From Verrucomicrobiota bacterium (GTDB taxonomy: Bacteria; Verrucomicrobiota; Verrucomicrobiia; Opitutales; Opitutaceae), in contig JAUWBD010000018.1 of the NCBI GenBank assembly GCA_030605125.1, forward strand, positions 1 through 40,846: DNA of 40,846 nucleotides, written 5' to 3'. Positions 2,330 through 32,500 of this stretch are shown here, one piece after another. The position numbers and the translations under genes were made by a program. The notes below the pieces were generated by a model that was not told the DNA's origin, did not search any database, and saw only the letters and a program-made list of their open reading frames with translations. Position 1 is the stretch's first letter. Each line of letters opens with the position of its first letter.

Positions 2330-3855
2330 GCCACGAGACTGGCCTCGCGCGCGGCGGGGTCAATCGGGGCGGAGAGGGCGCCGCGCATGTCGCCGGTGCG
2401 CAGGAACTGGCGGTGGAAGGCGAAGGCGTGCTCGACGTCGAAGGGCTCGTGGCCGTCCTTCGCGAGGGCGAGGTAGTGGCGCAGCTCGTCGCGGAAGTCC
2501 GGGTGGGCGCACTTCTGGATGATGAGCTCGGCGCGCTGGCGCGGATCGAGGCGGCGCAGGTCGGCCACGCCGTGCTCGGTGACGAGCACCTGCACGGAGT
2601 GCTCGCTGTGGTCGGCGTGGGTGACGAGGGGGACGAGCGTGCTGATCTTGCCGCCCTTCTGGAGCGAGGGGCAGGTGAAGATCGAGAGGTGGGCGTTGCG
2701 GGTGAAGTCGCCCGAGCCGCCGATGCCGTTCATCATCGTCTTGCCGAAGAGGTGCGTGCTGTTGATGTTGCCCTGGAGGTCGGCCTCGATCGCCGTATTC
2801 ACGGAGATGATACCGAGGCGGCGCACGATCTCGGGATTGTTGCTGATCTCCTGCGGGCGGAGGACGATGCGGCCGCGGAGCGAGTGCAGCTCGGCGTAGA
2901 GGGCCTTGAGAGCGGGCGGGCTGAGGGTCAGGGAGCAGCCGCTGGCGAACTTGAGCTTGCCCTGGCGGAGGAGGTCGAGGGTGGCGTCCTGAAGCACCTC
3001 GGAATACATGCAGAAGCGCGGGATGTCGGGGTGCGCGCCGAGGGCGCCGAGCACGGCGTTGGCGATGTCGCCCACGCCGGACTGGAGGGGGAGGAACTCG
3101 CGGGGGATGCGACCGACCTTGAGCTCGGCGGCGAGGAAGTTGGCGACGTTTTCACCGATCCGGGTGGTCACGGCGTCGGGCGCGGCGAAGGCGCCGGTCT
3201 CGTCGTCGCGCTCGGTGTGGACGACGCCGACGATCTTGGAGGGATCGATCTGGAGCCAGGGCTGGCCGATGCGGTCGGAGACGGAGTAGAGCGGGATCTC
3301 GCCGCGGTAGGGCGGGTCGATGGGCTCGTAGATGTCGTGCACGCCGCAGAGGGCGGAGGGGTGGCGGCGGTTGAGCTCGATGATTACCTTCTCGGCGCAG
3401 CGGGCGAAGGTGGGCGCGGCGCCGACGCCGCTGGTGAGGACGACGCGGCCGTCGGGCGTGATGTCGGCGGCCTCGAGCACGGCCCAGTGCACGGCGCCGA
3501 GGGCGCCGGTGCGCACGTGTTGCGCGAGCTGGCTGAGGTGCAGGTCGAAGAAGCGCACGCGGCCGGCGTTGATCGCCTTTCGCAGGTCGGGGTCGGACTG
3601 GTAGGGCGTGCGGAAGGAGATCGCGTCGGCCTTGGCGAGGGCGCCGTCGAGCGAGGCGCCGGTGGAGGCACCGGTGATCACGCCGATCTGGAAGGCGCGA
3701 CCGGCGGCGTGTTCGCGTTTGGCGTGTTCCGCGATGGCGGTGGGGATCTCCTTGGGCGCTCCGGCCGGGGTGAAGCCGCCGAAGGCGACGGTATCACCGT
3801 GGGTGATGAGCTGGGCCGCCTCGGCGGCGGTGAGGGAGGGGAATGGGAGGGACAT
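2326..3855 (-). CDS. Acetyl-CoA hydrolase / succinyl-CoA:acetate CoA-transferase family protein
   Basis: A 509-residue class I CoA-transferase, the usual length for the Ach1/Cat1/AarC (YgfH-ScpC) group. Visible marks are the N-terminal GDTVAFGGFTPAGAPKEIP segment, YSEVLQD with Glu286 as the expected catalytic glutamate that forms the glutamyl-CoA thioester, and GIGGSGDFTRNA at 377-388, typical of the succinyl-CoA:acetate branch. Known members move CoA between acyl-CoA and acetate (or hydrolyse acetyl-CoA) in acetate or propionate metabolism in the cytoplasm; which acceptor is used here cannot be read from sequence. The start at 3855 is the first ATG giving the conserved N-terminus, preceded by a pyrimidine tract rather than a Shine-Dalgarno. 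It is the first gene of a two-gene unit with the small membrane protein downstream. Confidence 0.92.
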   Translation of the reverse strand: MSLPFPSLTAAEAAQLITHGDTVAFGGFTPAGAPKEIPTAIAEHAKREHAAGRAFQIGVITGASTGASLDGALAKADAISFRTPYQSDPDLRKAINAGRVRFFDLHLSQLAQHVRTGALGAVHWAVLEAADITPDGRVVLTSGVGAAPTFARCAEKVIIELNRRHPSALCGVHDIYEPIDPPYRGEIPLYSVSDRIGQPWLQIDPSKIVGVVHTERDDETGAFAAPDAVTTRIGENVANFLAAELKVGRIPREFLPLQSGVGDIANAVLGALGAHPDIPRFCMYSEVLQDATLDLLRQGKLKFASGCSLTLSPPALKALYAELHSLRGRIVLRPQEISNNPEIVRRLGIISVNTAIEADLQGNINSTHLFGKTMMNGIGGSGDFTRNAHLSIFTCPSLQKGGKISTLVPLVTHADHSEHSVQVLVTEHGVADLRRLDPRQRAELIIQKCAHPDFRDELRHYLALAKDGHEPFDVEHAFAFHRQFLRTGDMRGALSAPIDPAAREASLVA

Positions 3856-3983
3856 GAGGAGGTGAGGGCTGCTCGGTTATGGGCCCGGGCGGTGAGCGAG
3901 GGCGCGCCGCGGGCCGGAAGGATTCCAGAGGATAGCCCGAAAGGCGCTTTCGAGCTACGCATTTGTTGGCGAGGGCAGGGCGC

Positions 3984-4017
3984 AAAAAGGCCCGGCGCGC
4001 GCGAGGCGGGCCGGGCC
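3984..4017 (-). terminator. Rho-independent terminator of the PPIase gene
   Basis: Read on the minus strand, GGCCCGGC and GCCGGGCC (4010-4017 and 3989-3996) form an 8-bp GC stem followed by five T (3988-3984), about 50 bases past the stop of the peptidyl-prolyl isomerase gene. Confidence 0.75.
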
Positions 4018-4067
4018 GGGAAAAAGACGTGGGGAGGACGGACGTAAAAGGATTTACGGGAGGAAAA

Positions 4068-5075
4068 TCAGTAAAGCCGGACGTAGGCGCCGCGGCGGAG
4101 ACGCTCCAGCCACTTCTCCTGCGCTTCACGCATCATTTGCTGCGCGAGGGAGGTCTCGATCTGCTCGCGCACCTCCTCGATCGGCGGCACACCGGCCTCT
4201 TTGCGGGCCTCGGCGAAGAGCAGATAGACACCTTCCGGTTGCACCACGGGCGAGCTCACCTGGCCGGCGCGGAGGGCGAAGAGCGGTTCGCTGAACTCGG
4301 GCTTCAGGTCGGCGCGTTTTTGCCAGCCCCAGTCGCCGCCACGGGAGCGGCGGGCGTCTTGGGTGTGCTCGCGGGCGAGCTCCTCGAAGGACGTGCCGGC
4401 GCGGAACTTGACGAGGATAGCCTCGGCTTGGGCGACGAGCTGCTCGTCGGTCTGCTCGCCGCGGTTGAGCTGGATGAGGCGGAGGTGCACCTGCTCCTCC
4501 TGGTGGAAGCGGGCTTGGTTGGCCTGGAAGTAGGATTCGACGCGGGCGGGGCTCACGACGTTGAGGCTCTTGCGCTGCTGGCCGCGCATGTAGCTGTAGA
4601 TGATCTCCTCCTCGACCTCCTTGCGGTAGTCGCGGAGGGTGAGGCCGCGGGAGCGGAGGTAGGCGAGGAAACGGGCGCGGTCGCCCTCAAACTGGGTGGT
4701 GAGCTGCTCCTTGATCGCGTTGTCGATGAAGCTTTCCGGGATCTTGCGGCGCTCGTCCTTGCGAAACTCGCGCACGATCAGGGCTCGGTCCACGAGGTTG
4801 CGGATGATCTCGTCCTGCACGCGCTCGAGGCGCTGCGAAAACTCCTGCTGGTTGCGCGAGTCGCGGCGGATCTGCGGGAGGATCGGGGCGAGCTCGCGGC
4901 GAATGTCGTCCACCGTGATGATCTTGCTCTCGACGACGGCGGCGATGCCGTTGGCGAAGCGAAGGTTGAGGCCGTCGTCGATGGGGGCGGCGGCCTGGGC
5001 CGCGGCGAAAGTGGGGACAAACAAGGCGCCGGCGAGGGCGAAGGGCAGGGCGAGGCGGCGGAGAGAAATAGGCAT
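4068..5075 (-). CDS. SurA-like periplasmic peptidyl-prolyl isomerase
   Basis: 335 residues. The start at 5075 gives a clean signal peptide (MPISLRRLALPFALAGALFVPTFAAAQA); the open frame continues upstream but codes only low-complexity sequence. Residues about 35-180 match the SurA N-terminal chaperone region (FANGIAAVVESKIITVDDIRREL, then ERVQDEIIRNLVDRALI). Residues about 190-290 are one parvulin domain with HLRLIQL, FEELAREHTQDARRSRGGDWGW and the FALRAGQVSSPV segment. SurA of enterobacteria has two parvulin domains; this one has one, as in many shorter relatives. The expected role is folding of outer-membrane proteins in the periplasm, which fits a window rich in exported proteins. It is monocistronic, with its own terminator downstream and a divergent gene upstream. 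Confidence 0.88.
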   Translation of the reverse strand: MPISLRRLALPFALAGALFVPTFAAAQAAAPIDDGLNLRFANGIAAVVESKIITVDDIRRELAPILPQIRRDSRNQQEFSQRLERVQDEIIRNLVDRALIVREFRKDERRKIPESFIDNAIKEQLTTQFEGDRARFLAYLRSRGLTLRDYRKEVEEEIIYSYMRGQQRKSLNVVSPARVESYFQANQARFHQEEQVHLRLIQLNRGEQTDEQLVAQAEAILVKFRAGTSFEELAREHTQDARRSRGGDWGWQKRADLKPEFSEPLFALRAGQVSSPVVQPEGVYLLFAEARKEAGVPPIEEVREQIETSLAQQMMREAQEKWLERLRRGAYVRLY

Positions 5076-6653: not shown

Positions 6654-8054
6654 TCAACGTTTTTCGTGCGGCGTGGGAACGAGGCGATATACGTGCGCTT
6701 GGGGTCGCGAGGTCGAACGGATGCGGCGCTCTAGGTCCGCGAGGTGGGCGCGGATGTTCGCCTCCTCCGGCTTCGCGTGGAGGTATCGCTCGATGATGCC
6801 GAAGTTGTAGCGATCCATCGAAGCTTCGCTGCGGCGGAGGCGCTCCATTTGCTCGCTGAGCCGCTCCCGCACCGTGGCGAACTCCACCGGCTGCGGGACA
6901 TCGCGCAGGTGCCAGTGCTCCACCTGCGGGATCACCCGTAAACGCGAGGAAACCGTGTCCCGCCACTCGCGGACCAAACCGAGCACGCGGGCCGCCTGGC
7001 GAGACTGCGGCGTGTCGGTTTCGGCGGCGAGGTCCACGCCGGCGGCGAGTTCGCCGGCGGACCAGGCACGGATGCGGACCCCGTCGATGTGGAGTTCGTA
7101 GTCGCCGGCCGGAAGGCCGGTGATGCGGAGCGATTCGTGATTCAACTCCTCCCGGATCGGCGCCCAGGCGAGGGCATCGAGGGCATCGCGGTGAAACGGA
7201 TACGGAAGACTCGCCGCGCGGACCGTGAAGGTCAGCCCCCCACCGGCGGGCGCGAGGTCGGAGACGGCGGCGTTCTTTTCGGCGACCACCCGGGCAGCCC
7301 GCGCATCGATCTCGATGGCCGAAACCAGCGCTGGAGCGCCCTGGGCTTTCAGTAGGAGCCATGCCATGAGGAGGTGCCCGGGGGCGCCGGGATGGACGCG
7401 GTCGGCGCCGATGATGGTGGCGCGTGGTTCGGCGGCTTGCAGGCGCGCGTTGATCGAGGTCATCGGGCCGTGGAAATCGACCAGGCCGGAGCCGGTCTCG
7501 GCCGCCAGCTCACGCAGAAAAGCCGCGCATTCGCCGAGGGCGGTGTTGACGCCGAGCTGGCGGGGACGATCGCTCTCGGCGGTGTCGTCGAACGGGGACG
7601 GCGTGAGCAGGACGACGCGAACGCCATCGGAGCGCAGCCGGGAAACGAGGGCGCGCATGTCGCGCCGATATTGGTCGAGAGCCGCGGCGCGGCGCGCGAG
7701 CACCTCGGCGCTTGGCGACGCTTCGCCGTAGAAACCGCGGCCCACGTCGTTCATCCCGAACATCACGGTGACGACGCTGGGTTTTTGCGCACGGACGTCC
7801 CACTCGTAGCGGCGCAAGGCTCCGCCCGCGCTGTCGCCGGAGATGCCGGCGCTCGCCGCCTGAAGCGCGCCGTCGGGGAAACGTGTGGCGTAGTAGAGAT
7901 AGACGGACGAGGCGTAGGCCCCGTTTTGGGTGATGCTGTCGCCGAGGAACAGCCATCGGTCATCGGGGCGAAAGAGTCCGCCCGAGGCGGGCTCGGCGGC
8001 ACGAACAGGGCCGTGGACGGTGAGTGCGAGAAGCAGGAGTGCGAGGCGTTTCAT
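6654..8054 (-). CDS. Secreted SGNH/GDSL-family hydrolase (probable carbohydrate esterase)
   Basis: 466 residues with a signal peptide (MKRLALLLLALTVHGPVRAAEP). The SGNH blocks are all visible: GDSIT with the nucleophile Ser40, GMND with Asn102, and ADRVHPGAPGH with Asp218 and His221 completing the triad. After the catalytic domain (about 33-235) comes a 230-residue extension, partly beta-rich and ending in a charged helical region. Family members in polysaccharide loci commonly remove acetyl or other acyl groups from sugars; deacetylation of the glycan attacked by this operon is the likely role, inferred from context. Its ATG overlaps by 4 bases (ATGA) the stop of the frameshifted tail of the GH30 gene, so its translation probably depends on ribosomes finishing that tail. 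It is the last gene of the operon. Confidence 0.88.
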   Translation of the reverse strand: MKRLALLLLALTVHGPVRAAEPASGGLFRPDDRWLFLGDSITQNGAYASSVYLYYATRFPDGALQAASAGISGDSAGGALRRYEWDVRAQKPSVVTVMFGMNDVGRGFYGEASPSAEVLARRAAALDQYRRDMRALVSRLRSDGVRVVLLTPSPFDDTAESDRPRQLGVNTALGECAAFLRELAAETGSGLVDFHGPMTSINARLQAAEPRATIIGADRVHPGAPGHLLMAWLLLKAQGAPALVSAIEIDARAARVVAEKNAAVSDLAPAGGGLTFTVRAASLPYPFHRDALDALAWAPIREELNHESLRITGLPAGDYELHIDGVRIRAWSAGELAAGVDLAAETDTPQSRQAARVLGLVREWRDTVSSRLRVIPQVEHWHLRDVPQPVEFATVRERLSEQMERLRRSEASMDRYNFGIIERYLHAKPEEANIRAHLADLERRIRSTSRPQAHVYRLVPTPHEKR

Positions 8055-8446
8055 TGGATCAAAAGTCGGAGAAATCGGCGTGGCTGCGGCGGGCGGGTGT
8101 CGGAGACCGTGACGGCCTCGCCGGGGGCGCCGGGGTTGACGGAGATCGTTTCCCACGAGGCGAGGTCGTCGCTGGCCTGGACCGTGTAGCGGAGATCTTC
8201 GCGCAGGCGTGTGAACGACAGGCGCGGGCGTTGGCCGGGGCCGAGGCTGACGGTGGGCAGGAGGTCGCGGCCGGAGGCGGGGGAGACGGGAGAGGAGCCG
8301 AGGGCGTATTCAAGGAGGTTGGGGATGCCGTCGGCATCGGGATCGGCGAGATCGCCCCCCTCGCCGGCGCCGTCGGACGGAAGACCGTGCGAGCGGCGCC
8401 ACTCCGCGAGCGGTGAAAGCGGCGGCAAAGGAGGCGGTGTGGCTAA
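8051..8446 (-). CDS. C-terminal tail of the GH30-LamG protein, out of frame by one base
   Basis: In the frame one base off from the GH30 gene, directly after the T9 run, about 130 codons read as a linker (TPPPLPPLSPLAEWRRSH), then DPDADGIPNLLEYALGSSPVSP, then a beta-rich end finishing in RRFLRLLIQ. The same kind of tail (W-R-x-x-H, DGxPNLLxYALG, ending FLRLR) closes the 1152-residue protein at 29570-33028 in frame. There is no obvious start codon of its own. Adding a single T to the T9 run would join it to the upstream protein. Its TGA overlaps the ATG of the SGNH gene, the mark of a translated frame. It is either the end of one gene split by a mutation or sequencing error, or a product of slippage. 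Confidence 0.7.
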   Translation of the reverse strand, partial: LATPPPLPPLSPLAEWRRSHGLPSDGAGEGGDLADPDADGIPNLLEYALGSSPVSPASGRDLLPTVSLGPGQRPRLSFTRLREDLRYTVQASDDLASWETISVNPGAPGEAVTVSDTRPPQPRRFLRLLIQ

Positions 8447-11400
8447 AAAAAAACTTCGGGGCGGCCGGAGATGCGGACGGAGCGAATCTCGCCTTGGAAG
8501 AAGGTGTTTGATCCGGAGCTGATATGGCCGATGCGGAGCTGGCCGTTGTTGGCGGGTTGAACGATGCCGCCGCTCAAGGCGCGGCTGCCGACGAGGACGC
8601 CGTCGAGATACAATTTCATCGTGGAGCCGTCGTAGGTGGCGCCGACGTGGGTCCAAACGCCGCCGACCACGGGAGCGGAAGACTGGAGCATGATCTCGTT
8701 GCTGCCGTTTTGCACGAGCCAGGAGACCCGGCGGTTCTGCTCCACGATCAAGCGGAAGCCGTTGAACTTGTAGTCACCGTATTGGAGGATGCCGAGGCCG
8801 CGGGTGCCGAGGTGCGACACGGCGGGTTTGATCCAGGCCTCCACGGCCACGGTGCCGTCGGGCAGGCTGATGACGGGAGCGGAGAAGGCGGGGTTGAGGC
8901 GCAAGGTGCCGTCGAAGCGGAGGGCGCCTCCGAGCCCTTCCCGCACCCAGGCCAGCGTGGAGGAGGCGTCCACGGGTTTGAGCGCGATGCCCGAAAGGCG
9001 GCGATCCGGGACGCGTTGTCCGCCGCCGCGGGAGAAGTCCCAGAGCGCGACGGTGTCTCCGCGCAGTTCGGCGGAATCGGGCCCTTCGCCCAGCGGGCCG
9101 GTGGCGGAAACGACGTAGAATCCGGGCGCGCCGCCGGTGCTGTCGGTGTGTTGCGGGAGGGCCGGCGTGGCGACCGTGGCGTAGGGGCCGCCAGGGGCCG
9201 AGGCGCGTTTAACCTTGTAGCCGGTGGCGCCAAAGACGGGCTGCCAAGTCAAGGCCACCGAAGCTCCGGAGGCGGAGGCTCGCAGGCCCTGGACCGCCTG
9301 CGGGGTGAAGCGGATGTTGTCGAAAGTGGCGGTGGCGGTCACGGAGGGGTTGGAGGTGCAAACCACGAGGCCGACATGGATGTCGCTGAAGAGGCGGAAG
9401 GTGTTGCTCGCGACCTGGGTCCAGGCGACCCCATCGGAGGAGATATGGCCGGTGACGGTGTTGCCGACGCGCACGAGCCGGAGCCACTGGGCGGTCGAGA
9501 TGTTTGGTCCGGTGACGTAGTTGCCGCCGGTGTTCTCGGTGGTGCGGGCATACCAGCGGGCGCGGCCGTGGCCGGGTTCGAAGAGGATGGCGGCGGTGCT
9601 GGACTGGGCGACGAGTTCGTCGCGCATCATGAGCCCGACTCGCAGATTGGGCGCGCCCGCGACGGGCGGAGCGGAGACGAGGCGGGCGATGAAGGTGCCG
9701 TCGCCGGCCATCTTGATCCAGGTGAAGTTGAAGCCGTCGGCGGTGCTGGCCATCGAGGCGCCGGCCCCGGTGACGGTGTAGGTGCCGGATGGCGAGATCG
9801 TGAGGCCGCCGGCGAGACCGGTCGAGCCCACGTCCTGATTGGTGAAGCCGCCGGTCGTGGGCGCGGCGACGACCGCGGAATCGCCGCTTTCTCCGACGGC
9901 GTTGCGTGCGGAGACGGTGTAATGATAGGCGGTGCCCGGTGTCGCGGTAAGATCGATGTAGCGGGTGTCGGAGCTGACGTCGATGGGGGTGAAGGGGCCC
10001 GCGGAGGAGGTGCCCCGCTTGATGATCCAGGTGTCGGCGCCGACGGTGTTGTGCCAATCGAGGACGACGGGCGCGTTGATCGCGGAACGGGCGGAGAGGC
10101 CGACGGGAGCCGGCGGGATGGACGGCGAGGCGGCCGGGGAGCGCAGACTGACGAGCTCGCGAGCGTGGACCGTCACGGTGCCGACACCGTTGACGAAGGT
10201 GACGGTGCCGGCGGGCGAGAAGTGCGTGTGCGCCTTGCTGCGCCAGACGGAGAAAACGGTGCTCGGGACGGAGGCCAGCTCCTCGATCGTGATCGTGACC
10301 GAAAAGTGGTTTTCCGGGTGGAACAGGTTCGGAGGCGAGCTGTTGGGGGTGTGCGGGCTGCCGACGATGCCGGTGGTGTTGACGATGTTGACGCCCCAGC
10401 TCCCGTCGGGGTTGAGACCGACGGCGGCGTTGATGGCGGGGTTTTGGTTCAGGTGGTTGAACATGCCGCCCTCGGTGGCGCTGCTGCAGCGACGCATGAC
10501 CGCGCCCTTTCTCAGCACGTGGAGGGCCTGCCTAAAGTAGTGGTAACGCAGATACAGGATGACGCTCGAGGTGGCCTGGTCATAGACGGCGAGGTAGGCG
10601 TGGGCGTTGGAGTCGGTGGCGGCGTTGGCCACCCGGCGCATGCCGATGAAATAGAGCCAATGGTCCACGCCGGCGTTGAGGTCGCAGAGGAAGCGGCCGA
10701 GGATGGTGGAGGCGCGATGCTCGTCCTCCGGCTGCTCGTTTCCGGCGTCGGAGGATTCGGTCATCCACCACTCCTTGTCGCGACGGCGCTCCCACTGGCG
10801 GACGTTGGGGAGCACCCGGAAGTAGGAGTGGTGGGCGATGCCGGAGAGGTTTCGCCAGGCGGCGCCGTCGGCGAAAAGGGGATCGATGAACTGGAGCATG
10901 CCGCTGCTGCCGTTGGAGGTCTCGGGCGCGATGATCTTGACGTTGCCCAGTCCGCGGGCGTCGAGCCGGGCGCGGAGTTCGTTGACGCAGTCGATCATCT
11001 GTTGCGCGCTCCAGCTTCCCGGCTCGTTGGCGATGCCGGTCGCGTGGATCTGGACGCCGTAGGCGAGCTCGATCTGGGCGATCACCTCGGCGAGGCGCTC
11101 GGCGTAGGCGGACATGGATTCGGCCGGCGGGGAGGTCCAGCTATAGACGGGCGCGCTTCGGCAGGGCGCGAGCAGCAGGGTGTCAACGCCGCGAGCCATG
11201 ACGTCGGCGATGAGTCCGCTGGCGACGTAGCGGCTGTTGAACTCGGCGAGCATGGAGGAGACCGTCTGCGTGTGGTCGGAGCTGATCCACAGGCGCAGGA
11301 TATTCATCTCGAGATCCCGAAACACCAGGTCGGCCATCTGATCCCGGATGGGCGGCGAGAGGTCCGACCAGGATGTGGTGACCTGGCTCACGCCAAAGCC

Positions 11401-11532
11401 CGCGAAGGTTTGGCGAAGCCCGTCGGAATGGGCGGTGATGGCATAGGGCGTTTGCGCGGATGAGGTGGCGGTCATCCACGCTCCGAGGAGCAGAGCGCAG
11501 GCGAGCGTCGCGATCTTGGGGAGGGTGTGCAT
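8443..11532 (-). CDS. Secreted GH30-like glycoside hydrolase with Fn3, beta-sandwich and LamG domains
   Basis: 1029 residues from the ATG at 11532, which gives a signal peptide (MHTLPKIATLACALLLGAW, cleaved after SSAQ). Residues about 30-370 resemble a GH30 clan-A barrel: FAGFGVSQ near the start, ATGIANEPG with Glu170 as expected acid/base, and WWMTESSD with Glu259 as expected nucleophile; a beta-sandwich follows to about 470. Then come Fn3 (470-560), a concanavalin-like segment (560-745), a second Fn3 (747-825) and LamG (826-1029). GH30 members include endo-xylanases and endo-beta-1,6-glucanases or galactanases; the substrate is not readable here. The frame ends EVFF-TAG inside nine T (8445-8453). 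Its LamG domain is clearly paralogous to the stand-alone LamG protein at 17708-18454. Confidence 0.85.
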   Translation of the reverse strand: MHTLPKIATLACALLLGAWMTATSSAQTPYAITAHSDGLRQTFAGFGVSQVTTSWSDLSPPIRDQMADLVFRDLEMNILRLWISSDHTQTVSSMLAEFNSRYVASGLIADVMARGVDTLLLAPCRSAPVYSWTSPPAESMSAYAERLAEVIAQIELAYGVQIHATGIANEPGSWSAQQMIDCVNELRARLDARGLGNVKIIAPETSNGSSGMLQFIDPLFADGAAWRNLSGIAHHSYFRVLPNVRQWERRRDKEWWMTESSDAGNEQPEDEHRASTILGRFLCDLNAGVDHWLYFIGMRRVANAATDSNAHAYLAVYDQATSSVILYLRYHYFRQALHVLRKGAVMRRCSSATEGGMFNHLNQNPAINAAVGLNPDGSWGVNIVNTTGIVGSPHTPNSSPPNLFHPENHFSVTITIEELASVPSTVFSVWRSKAHTHFSPAGTVTFVNGVGTVTVHARELVSLRSPAASPSIPPAPVGLSARSAINAPVVLDWHNTVGADTWIIKRGTSSAGPFTPIDVSSDTRYIDLTATPGTAYHYTVSARNAVGESGDSAVVAAPTTGGFTNQDVGSTGLAGGLTISPSGTYTVTGAGASMASTADGFNFTWIKMAGDGTFIARLVSAPPVAGAPNLRVGLMMRDELVAQSSTAAILFEPGHGRARWYARTTENTGGNYVTGPNISTAQWLRLVRVGNTVTGHISSDGVAWTQVASNTFRLFSDIHVGLVVCTSNPSVTATATFDNIRFTPQAVQGLRASASGASVALTWQPVFGATGYKVKRASAPGGPYATVATPALPQHTDSTGGAPGFYVVSATGPLGEGPDSAELRGDTVALWDFSRGGGQRVPDRRLSGIALKPVDASSTLAWVREGLGGALRFDGTLRLNPAFSAPVISLPDGTVAVEAWIKPAVSHLGTRGLGILQYGDYKFNGFRLIVEQNRRVSWLVQNGSNEIMLQSSAPVVGGVWTHVGATYDGSTMKLYLDGVLVGSRALSGGIVQPANNGQLRIGHISSGSNTFFQGEIRSVRISGRPEVFF
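8445..8453 (-). other. T9 homopolymer at a frameshift junction
   Basis: Nine T on the coding strand directly precede AG, giving the stop TAG in the GH30-LamG frame. One additional T turns GTT-TTT-TTT-TAG into GTT-TTT-TTT-TTA and opens the frame into the 130-codon tail. Runs of nine T or A are known sites of RNA polymerase slippage as well as of indel mutations and sequencing errors. Confidence 0.75.
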
Positions 11533-11620
11533 GGGGTGTTTGGGGGAAAATCGAGGCACGGCGGCGGCCTGCACGGACGGAGTGCCGCCGCCATGCGGGG
11601 GAGAGGTTTGAAAACACGCC

Positions 11621-29569: not shown

Positions 29570-32500
29570 TCAGGGGGTGGCGGCGCGGAGGCGGAGGAAG
29601 AGCCGCGGGCGGGCGTCGCGGGCCACGTGGGCCTCCACCTCCTCGTGCGTGTCGGTGCGGCTCACGATCTCCTCGACCACGCCCGCCGTGGACCAGGCGG
29701 AGAGCGTCTCGGACCACTGCGCGGCGGCGGAGACGTCGGGCGCGTAGCGGGCGCGCCGATACGCCAGGGTCAGCACGTCGCCGGAGGGGCTGATCTCCAA
29801 GCGGGGGAGCGCGGCGGTGGCGGCGGGCACGAGCGGGTCGAGGCCGAGGGCGTATTTGAGCAGATTTGGCACGCCGTCGCCCGCCGGGGCGGCGGCGGGG
29901 CCGGAGATGGCGGAGTCGGCCAGCTGGGCGGCGGAGAAGTGGCGCTGGCGCCAGCTCTCGAGCGTGCCGTAGGGCGCGGGCGGGGCCGGGAGCGTGCCGC
30001 CCATCAGGTGCGCGATCGACTCGGCGGGGAAGGCGTGGCGATGGATGCGAAGCTGCGAGAGGCGGCCGTTGAACTGGTTGGTCGCGGAGGTGTTGGGCTG
30101 GCCGATCCACACCGGGGCGGAGTTGGTGTTGAGCACGGCGCTGCTCTCGGTGGCGGTGGTGTCGAGCACGCCGTTGACGTAGAGCCGGGCGCGCTGGGCG
30201 GAGGGCAGGGAGCCGTCGAAGACGACCGCGACGTGATACCAGGCGTCGTTGGCGAAGACGGTGCTCGAGGGGAAGCGGTTGTTGGTGGTGTCGAGATCGA
30301 TGAAGAGGCGGTTGCCGGTGAAGAAAAAGACGGAGAAGACACCGTCGGTGGTGCCGGTGCGCTTGGAGACGACGAAGCGGGGATCGGTGCCGTTGAGGTT
30401 GGAAGGGCGCACCCAGAAGGCGATGGTGAGCGCGCCCATGGCGTTGAAGGCGGCCTCGTTGGGCACGGAGGCGACCTGGGTGGAGCCGGCGAGGTTGACC
30501 ACGCGGCCGCGGGTGGTGTCGTCGGGCCAGGTGGGGGCGGAGGAGAACGTGAGCGCGCGGCCCTGGCCGGAGGCGTCGGCGGCGGTGGAGCCGGTGGTCT
30601 CGGTGAAGGGCCAGTGCGCGACGACGCCGTAGGGCGGGCCGGGGACGGCGGGCGTGACGGCGAGCACGCTCGCGCTCCAGGGGCCGGGGCCGAGGAGGGT
30701 GACGGGGCGGACGCGGTAGGCGTAGCCGGAGCCGGCGGCGAGGGCGTCGTCGGCGTAGTGGATCGTGGATACGGAGCCGAGGTCGAGCCAGGCGCCGTCG
30801 GGCAGGAGGCGGCGCTGGATCTGGTAACCGGAGAGCCCGTCGGCGGCGAGCGCCTGCCAGGCGAGGGAGGCGGAGCCGGAGGTGACGGCGGTGACGGAGA
30901 GGCCGGAGACGGGAGTGGTGGGCGAGGCCACCGACTGGGGAACGACGACGAGGCGCGGGTGCGCGGAGCTGGTGCCGTTTTCCTTGGTGGCGAAGGTGGA
31001 GTTGGAGCCGGAGGCGCCGTTGGCGCGGGTGAGGGCGAGCGTGGCGGAGGGGCGGCCGGCGGCGCGCACCGAGTTGAGGAAGGCGACCAGCTCGGGGCCG
31101 GTGAAGACGAGCGTGGCGCCGTTGGCCGTGGAACCGGGGACGTTGAGCGTGAGCAGGAGCTGGGCGCGGCCGCCGTTTTCGGTGCCGGCGCCGGTGAGCA
31201 GGTCGGTGCCGGAGGAGGTGTTGTTGGCGGGAGCGTTGTCCCAGTTGATCTGCATCTCGGGCCAGTCTTCGCCGAGCTTGCCGCCGCCGGCGGTGCTGCC
31301 GGGGTTGAGGCCGTAGAGGCGGAAGTTGAGGCCATTGGTCAGGTCGGCGGAGTCCCAGTCGAGCTGGGTGAAGGTGACGCGCAGCTCGGCGTGGCGGAGG
31401 TCCTCGGCGAGATCGCGGACGTCGAAACGGAGGTAGGCTTTGCGGTTGCCGACCTGTTTCACGTTCATCGTGGCGTTGGCGCCGCGGAGGGTGGTGCCTT
31501 CGACGCCGGAGTCGGCCTGCGGACCGAGGAAATAGGCGGGGCCGGTGGTGCCGAGCGAGGGCGTGGACCAATCCGAGCCGGCGCCGCCGGCGTAGAGGGC
31601 GCGCACCCGGTAGCGGTAGGTGGTGGCGGGGGCGAGACCCGTGTCCTCAAGCGAGAGGGTGGCGGCGGGGAGGGTGGCGAGGGTTTGCCAGGTGTCGGCG
31701 GAGGCGGGCGCGCGTTGAACCTCCCAGCCGGTGACGGCGCCGGAGGTCTGGTCGAGCCAGGAGAGGGCGATGCGGGCGAAGGAGAGCGGGGTGGCGCGCG
31801 GGCGGCCGGTGGCGGCGAGCGAGATGCGATAGACGTTGCCGTCGGTGCCGCCGAGGCGGGCGGGGACGCCGGTGCCGTCGGCGTAGAAGTAGTCGAAATT
31901 GGTGGTGAGAAAGAACTCGTCGCCCTGCGAGGCGAAGCGGGCGAAGAGCAGCCGGGGGCCGGGGCAGAGGGCGTTGAAGAGTTCGGTCCAGGACTGGCCG
32001 TGGTTGGTGCTCTCAAAGACGCGGGCGCGGTTGTGGTATTGGTTGGCGCCGCTGGTGATGGTCTGGCTGAGGAGCGCGCGGAGGCGGCCGTCGGCGGTGA
32101 AGTGGAAATCCTGCACGCGCACGGTGGTCTCGTTGACGGTGAGTCCGGGGAAGTTGTTGAACTCGCGCAGATCGAGCGTGGGCTCCATCTGGTGGATCGC
32201 GTAGAGCCGGTGGAAAGTGTGATAGTAGGCGACGCCGTCGCGCGTGATGCTGCGGCGCTGGTAGAGCTGGTTGGCGATGTGGGGAAAGCCGGCGGCGGAG
32301 TAGGTGGCGTGAGCGACGGCGAACTCGTCCCCGGTGCCGGGCGTGTAGCGGAAGATCGGGGTCGAGTCGCTCCACGGCATGACGTAGAGCTGGCCCTGCA
32401 CGACGAAGAAGTGCAGGGGCTCCTGCGAGGAACCGTCGGCGCCGCGCATCGGGCCGCCACGGGCGACGCGCCAGTTGACGCCGTCGTTTTCGCTGACGAC

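Follow-up and report, generated by a model that had tools for sequence, protein, structure and literature searches.

The stretch of DNA analysed here, called the window throughout, comprises positions 1 to 40,846 of contig JAUWBD010000018.1 (assembly GCA_030605125.1) of a Verrucomicrobiota bacterium of the family Opitutaceae. Its minus strand carries a gene for an exported-looking GH30-like protein with a LamG domain at its C-terminus. The reading frame of this gene ends within a run of nine T (T9), and behind the run a shifted frame encodes a further C-terminal module, referred to here as the tail. The features on which the argument depends are as follows.

8443 to 11532, minus strand: GH30-like/LamG protein in the zero frame; likely start ATG at 11532
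8461 to 8886, minus strand: LamG domain, residues 897-1038 of 1043 (Pfam Laminin_G_3, E 5e-23)
8445 to 8453, minus strand: T9 run, the proposed slip site (A9 on the plus strand); zero frame GTT TTT TTT TAG
8443 to 8445, minus strand: zero-frame stop TAG, which uses the last T of the T9 run
8051 to 8449, minus strand: tail (linker and C-terminal module) in the -1 frame, 132 codons and TGA at 8053-8051
8051 to 8054, minus strand: ATGA overlap of the tail stop (TGA, 8053-8051) and the start of the next gene (ATG, 8054-8052)
6654 to 8054, minus strand: SGNH (GDSL) hydrolase (Pfam Lipase_GDSL_2, E 7e-22, on the longer open frame 6654-8156)
29588 to 29989, minus strand: divergent in-frame tail copy in another protein of the window (39% identity), for comparison only

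The enzyme gene, the T9 run and the tail

The open frame of the enzyme gene extends to a GTG at 11574 and has 1043 codons from that GTG. We prefer the ATG at 11532 because the length of the signal peptide, by reading, then equals that of the ortholog described below. A preliminary description of this DNA had called the protein a GH30 enzyme. The best matches were NCBIfam XynC (E 4e-6) and Pfam GH59 (E 6e-5), both below their curated cut-offs, and no GH30 or GH59 model matched above its cut-off; the label can therefore be kept only in the form GH30-like. The same description had placed the stop at a TAG formed within nine T of the coding strand, and this is what is present (run 8453-8445, stop 8445-8443): the zero frame ends GAA GTT TTT TTT TAG. 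The junction of the two frames is thus occupied by an A/T run in the class of about nine or more (8445-8453), and the slippery heptamer X XXY YYZ is present in the zero frame as U UUU UUU, followed by UAG. The run also lies at a domain boundary, LamG ending at residue 1038 of 1043 and a Pro-rich linker beginning at the run. A role of T9 as a transcription terminator was considered and rejected, because a simple consensus scan found no terminator-like site there.

Re-reading or adding one T at the run opens a frame of 132 codons, and not 130 as described earlier, that ends at TGA 8053-8051. Its 132 residues (...LADPDADGIPNLLEYALG...PRRFLRLLIQ) include a Pro-rich linker, the motif DPDADGIPNLLEYALG and, by prediction, a beta domain, with PRRFLRL at the end. 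The shifted frame holds a recognisable and intact protein module. An in-frame homologous tail had been reported for another protein of the window, and it is there, in the divergent copy listed above. The overlap of the tail stop with the next start had been noted too and taken as a constraint on translation. It is present, but by itself it demonstrates geometry only. The gene that begins at the overlap encodes the SGNH hydrolase, the start of which resembles a signal peptide, and its translation is possibly coupled to that of the tail.

The tail is intact and undecayed. In a leave-one-out test, in which each of 30 tails (copies with 90 to 150 residues from tail start to stop or locus end) was scored against the profile of the other 29, it ranked 15th with 127.9 bits (range 82.6 to 152.7). 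Its codon score per codon ranked 18th of the 30. The structure model of the tail is of modest confidence, with a mean predicted local distance difference test score (pLDDT) of 63 and a predicted template modelling score (pTM) of 0.51; over residues 71-132 the pLDDT is about 75-83, and a beta domain is predicted. A Foldseek search with the model gave no match at E up to 0.001. The best VIA comparison (Z 5.9, root-mean-square deviation 2.9, 70 aligned) belongs to unspecific FN3/Ig-like rows, from which we draw no function, and a profile search of PDB sequences returned one match, at E 0.88. Among 13 tails compared with Pfam, five showed a weak TSP3_bac match, and the tail of the window matched no Pfam family, TSP3_bac included.

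Completeness of the short form

A single close ortholog was found; it lies in L102 of Opitutaceae bacterium UBA4094 and is 58% identical over residues 14-1043. It ends ...GEIRSVRIHSKPFITYDP followed by a stop, directly after LamG. The LamG paralog in the window likewise ends ...SIRISSTARTSFELN followed by a stop right after LamG, and the zero frame of the enzyme ends ...SVRISGRPEVFF followed by its stop, at the place that matches the end of the ortholog. Because ortholog and paralog both stop right after LamG, we consider the short form to be complete and the tail to be an addition: judged by this alignment, the zero-frame product is the whole enzyme, and the tail is an extra of this lineage, attached at a domain boundary. 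The earlier view that the run splits an enzyme from its own tail does not hold. Nor does the accompanying expectation that a tail accompanied by neither run nor tail in relatives would be a decayed remnant, since the one relative found lacks both and the tail is nevertheless undecayed.

The search for orthologs gave matches in 4 of 57 relatives (E up to 1e-30), 3 of 252 in the family (1e-60) and 1 of 384 in the class (1e-80), counts that include the genome of the window. G230 represents the UBA4094 sequence again (L103 is identical to L102 over 6081 bases), and the matches apart from G230 are partial, with 35-40% identity. The genome itself holds three further partial GH30-like matches (34-41%) in addition to the LamG match in the window. 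Downstream of the UBA4094 enzyme lie one SGNH gene and then a second. The SGNH gene of the window is 65% identical to the second of these (residues 17-463), and the first is missing from the window.

The tail module in the genome and the genus

In its own genome the tail matches 70 places when E values up to 1 are allowed and 58 with a limit of 1e-4, and the module was found in all 15 genus genomes examined, with 11 to 60 matches each (E up to 1e-4). The 45 loci searched hold 32 distinct copies; 31 of these meet a stop no more than 33 residues past the end of the alignment, and one continues for 218 residues. A Pfam scan of ten tailed proteins, covering the part of each inside the fetched locus, gave domains for seven (PATR twice, GH26 with Ig, DUF1349 with F5/8, RCC1, beta-helix, MBG) and none for three. 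The position of the copies at protein ends and these domains mark the tail as a C-terminal module of general occurrence, probably in exported proteins. In the 30 tail contexts listed (33 loci scanned; 23 rows come from this genome, some giving the same copy twice), an A/T run of six or more within 150 nucleotides upstream of the tail occurs only here.

A second shifted tail was sought in the same genome among 11 short or doubtful-frame matches, and none lay out of frame behind a run: L036-L039 are cut by a contig end, L040, L041, L045 and L046 are intact genes, L042 and L044 encode TSP3-type proteins, and L043 is a weak match. Recurrence elsewhere in the genus was likewise rejected, as seven of the eight short-frame tails fetched are cut at contig edges and the remaining one, L233, has one stop directly ahead of the tail and another inside it, without a run. 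We also observed that L040, at about 2850-4890 (G000:C55), has a PEP-CTERM-like gene followed by a tail-module gene, so that two types of C-terminal module adjoin.

Long A/T runs in the genome

A/T runs of nine or more occur six times in the 4,884,761 bases of this GC-rich genome, and 0.6 would be expected from the independent base composition of the window. Two of them are intergenic by reading: the one in C31 resembles a terminator, and the one in C187 precedes a gene that looks like one for tyrosyl-tRNA synthetase. The other four are inside genes, and all four lie at frame transitions: in dnaX, in an IS3-type transposase, in a frame pair before a tape-measure-like gene, and in this enzyme, which needs a -1 shift at T9. 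We claim this four-of-four pattern for this genome only. The first three belong to kinds of gene known for recoding, the identity of the prophage tail chaperone being probable.

In dnaX the run is A10 (G000:C110:8988-8997, L033), with tau in the -1 frame. The run is present in all 15 genus genomes (L033, L119, L120, L121, L151, L155, L166, L169, L181, L191, L193, L201, L202, L211, L219), as A10 in 14 and as A9 in L219, and in 14 genomes the A10 is followed by a zero-frame stop within two codons. The A9 of L219 (G003), where the frames stand in a different relation, is a variant or an error. In the IS3-type transposase (A9, G000:C95:328-336, L032), joining OrfA and OrfB, which match HTH_Tnp_1 and rve, needs a +1 shift; the element resembles the IS1447 group described in Firmicutes. 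The frame pair (A9, G000:C147:2662-2670, L034) needs a -1 shift and lies just before the tape-measure-like gene (PHROG tape measure, E 5e-6), a position from which we regard it as a probable prophage tail-chaperone pair. Given the dnaX site in 15 of 15 genomes and the position of the gene-internal runs of this genome at changes of frame, slip sites of this kind are evidently tolerated in the genus.

Homopolymer controls

The sequence derives from one draft assembly of 271 contigs, in which we inspected 25 A/T runs of eight and 30 G/C runs of nine or more, using a coding score trained on five genes of the window that include this enzyme. A first classifier assigned 11 of the A/T and six of the G/C runs to the interior of a single coding frame; it flagged L049, L063 and L073. 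It proved insensitive, flagging 5 of the 15 dnaX sites as shifts, and a truncation test, which finds 15 of 15, was added for this reason. The truncation test flags seven of the 55 runs. At five of them (L058, L063, L071, L073, L085) the opposite strand carries a gene with a higher score, and L049 and L068 read as ordinary ends of genes, after which the next gene has a start of its own. No break within a gene was found at any of the 55, so a general homopolymer error is unlikely, and a single error at T9 is possible. At L049 (G000:C29:3201-3210), the A8 lies just upstream of a gene end that overlaps the next start (ATGA), and a slip would join both frames.

Across the 15 genomes, 126 A or T runs of nine or more were listed, 124 of them distinct in loci. 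The first classifier assigned 76 to intergenic positions and 37 to the inside of one frame, eight and two of which, respectively, are misplaced dnaX sites. The remaining 11, possible shifts, comprise four in this genome, four dnaX sites, and L149, L206 and L208, which we read as gene boundaries. The truncation test flagged nine of the 104 non-dnaX runs in the other 14 genomes: L135 and L160 mark the ordinary ends of genes, L172 and L208 were read as boundaries between genes, and L124, L132, L142, L147 and L154 are flagged by the automated test alone. With 37 of 124 runs inside one frame, a claim that gene-internal runs of this length mark frame changes throughout the genus was dropped.

Discussion

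We consider it somewhat probable that T9 is a working slip site, and that slippage yields a plain and a tailed enzyme from one gene. Read as templated, the message would be translated up to the TAG within T9 and give a complete GH30-like/LamG enzyme like the ortholog. In a fraction of messages, RNA polymerase may add one U (or drop two) on the run, and ribosomes may also, or instead, move back by one base at U UUU UUU UAG. The shifted products would continue with ...EVFFLATPPP... and thereby carry an additional C-terminal module of about 130 residues. Because this module ends dozens of proteins in the genome and the genus, and the sampled ones have extracellular-type domains, the tailed form would probably share whatever fate at the surface, in the matrix or in folding comes with the module, and the untailed form would not.

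Published work gives rates for comparable runs. Insertion by the Escherichia coli RNA polymerase is about 5% on T7 and about 10% on T8, T runs being preferred (PMC6260861); A9 in IS1447 slips about 16% each way (PMC6211511); and the A9 of Thermus dnaX gives 50% short product (PMC1088944). Slippage at T9 is likely if the polymerase of this host behaves like that of E. coli. Moreover, Baranov et al. consider long A/T runs improbable by chance in GC-rich genomes and hence likelier to be under positive selection.

The nearest architecture is that of spa13/spa32 in Shigella flexneri, where a transcriptional slip adds a C-terminal extension of 112 residues to 25-30% of the product, and where the extension finishes in an overlap with the start of the following gene, whose expression slippage affects (PMC5009743). 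There, the extension is required for the secretion apparatus and the slip was measured, whereas here the module is added to an exported enzyme and is known from sequence. In the gamma/tau system of dnaX (Thermus A9 and the E. coli type; PMC1088944, PMC5009743), a slip-prone run leads to short and long forms, as we propose for the enzyme, but that run is of A and is found throughout the genus, and the enzyme has a run of T in one genome. In the IS3 elements of the IS1447 type (PMC6211511), a nine-base run joins two frames, as T9 would, and the C95 element of this genome shares the A9 and the +1 shift; these are, however, mobile elements with an A run and a shift in the other direction. The tssM gene of Citrobacter rodentium (PMC4256274) is interrupted and reported to give two length variants by transcriptional frameshifting, its short form being a prematurely interrupted protein, whereas the short form here is complete. 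Our literature searches (slippage in secreted enzymes, C-terminal sorting in Opitutaceae, and the tail motif as text) returned nothing relevant, and a search for transcriptional slippage in Verrucomicrobia led to one paper, PMC3711429.

Several results weigh against slippage at T9. The UBA4094 ortholog has neither the T run nor the tail, so the run and the shifted extension are not conserved in the one homolog that allows the comparison; for this reason we say that the site works like a slip site and do not claim programmed recoding. No other run of nine or more, among 120 in the 14 congeners, precedes the tail motif within 700 nucleotides. RNA folding downstream of T9 is marginal in one stretch (85 nucleotides after the run; marginally better than shuffles, z -1.94, 7 of 200) and not significant in three others. 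The upstream frame of the C147 pair matched no family, and its short shifted frame matched only a family of unknown function, at E 0.034. Lastly, the 37 runs classed inside one coding frame (two truly dnaX; the classification is automated and uncurated) argue that runs of nine or more are not kept only for recoding, and runs also occur near ordinary gene ends (L049, L068, L135, L160).

Slippage, mutation and sequencing error had been named side by side in the preliminary description. Slippage is the best supported of these, and the 55 unbroken homopolymers make a general sequencing problem unlikely. A recent frameshift or phase variation would mean that the tail was once in frame behind T10 and that one T was lost by replication slippage, either freshly or as a reversible on/off state. 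T9 is hypermutable in principle, the tail is as undecayed as a recent event would predict, and surface and secreted proteins are described as frequent among phase-variable genes (PMC3711429). However, the T10 state needs GTT TTT TTT TTA (V-F-F-L), and TTA accounts for one of the 487 Leu codons in five genes of the window, an objection softened if the run has grown by expansion. The short form, furthermore, ends where the ortholog ends, and we regard this explanation as unlikely.

An out-of-frame fusion would account for an ortholog that stops naturally at this point and has no tail: recombination would have put a tail fragment behind the enzyme's stop, where it would be unmade or translated as noise and too young for decay. 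The region does appear rearranged, because the window lacks the first of the two SGNH genes that follow the enzyme in L102. Yet the tail is without decay, and it stands behind one of the genome's six long A/T runs and ends exactly on the next start codon; we judge such a fusion to be distinctly improbable. Least probable of all is a sequencing or assembly error that hides a true T10 and a continuous gene, for although homopolymers are error-prone and the sequence comes from one draft assembly, no within-gene break accompanies the 25 A/T8 and 30 G/C9+ runs of that assembly, and its dnaX A10 is as long as in 13 congeners.

If slippage at T9 does occur, ribosomes reaching the end of the tail would terminate within ATGA and might start again at the SGNH hydrolase gene, and the slip rate may therefore influence that gene as well. 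A more far-reaching proposal, that T9 acts as a sorting switch that sets both the ratio of untailed to tailed enzyme and the expression of a coupled SGNH hydrolase, is in our opinion doubtful.

Should slippage at T9 be real, gene-internal A/T runs of nine or more in GC-rich genomes would suggest themselves as a simple screen. One gene would give a polysaccharide-degrading enzyme in two versions, one carrying a C-terminal module that is common in the genus and one lacking it, in a ratio set by slippage. The use of slippage would then extend beyond genes of replication, transposition, phage and the secretion apparatus to the outfitting of secreted enzymes in Verrucomicrobiota.

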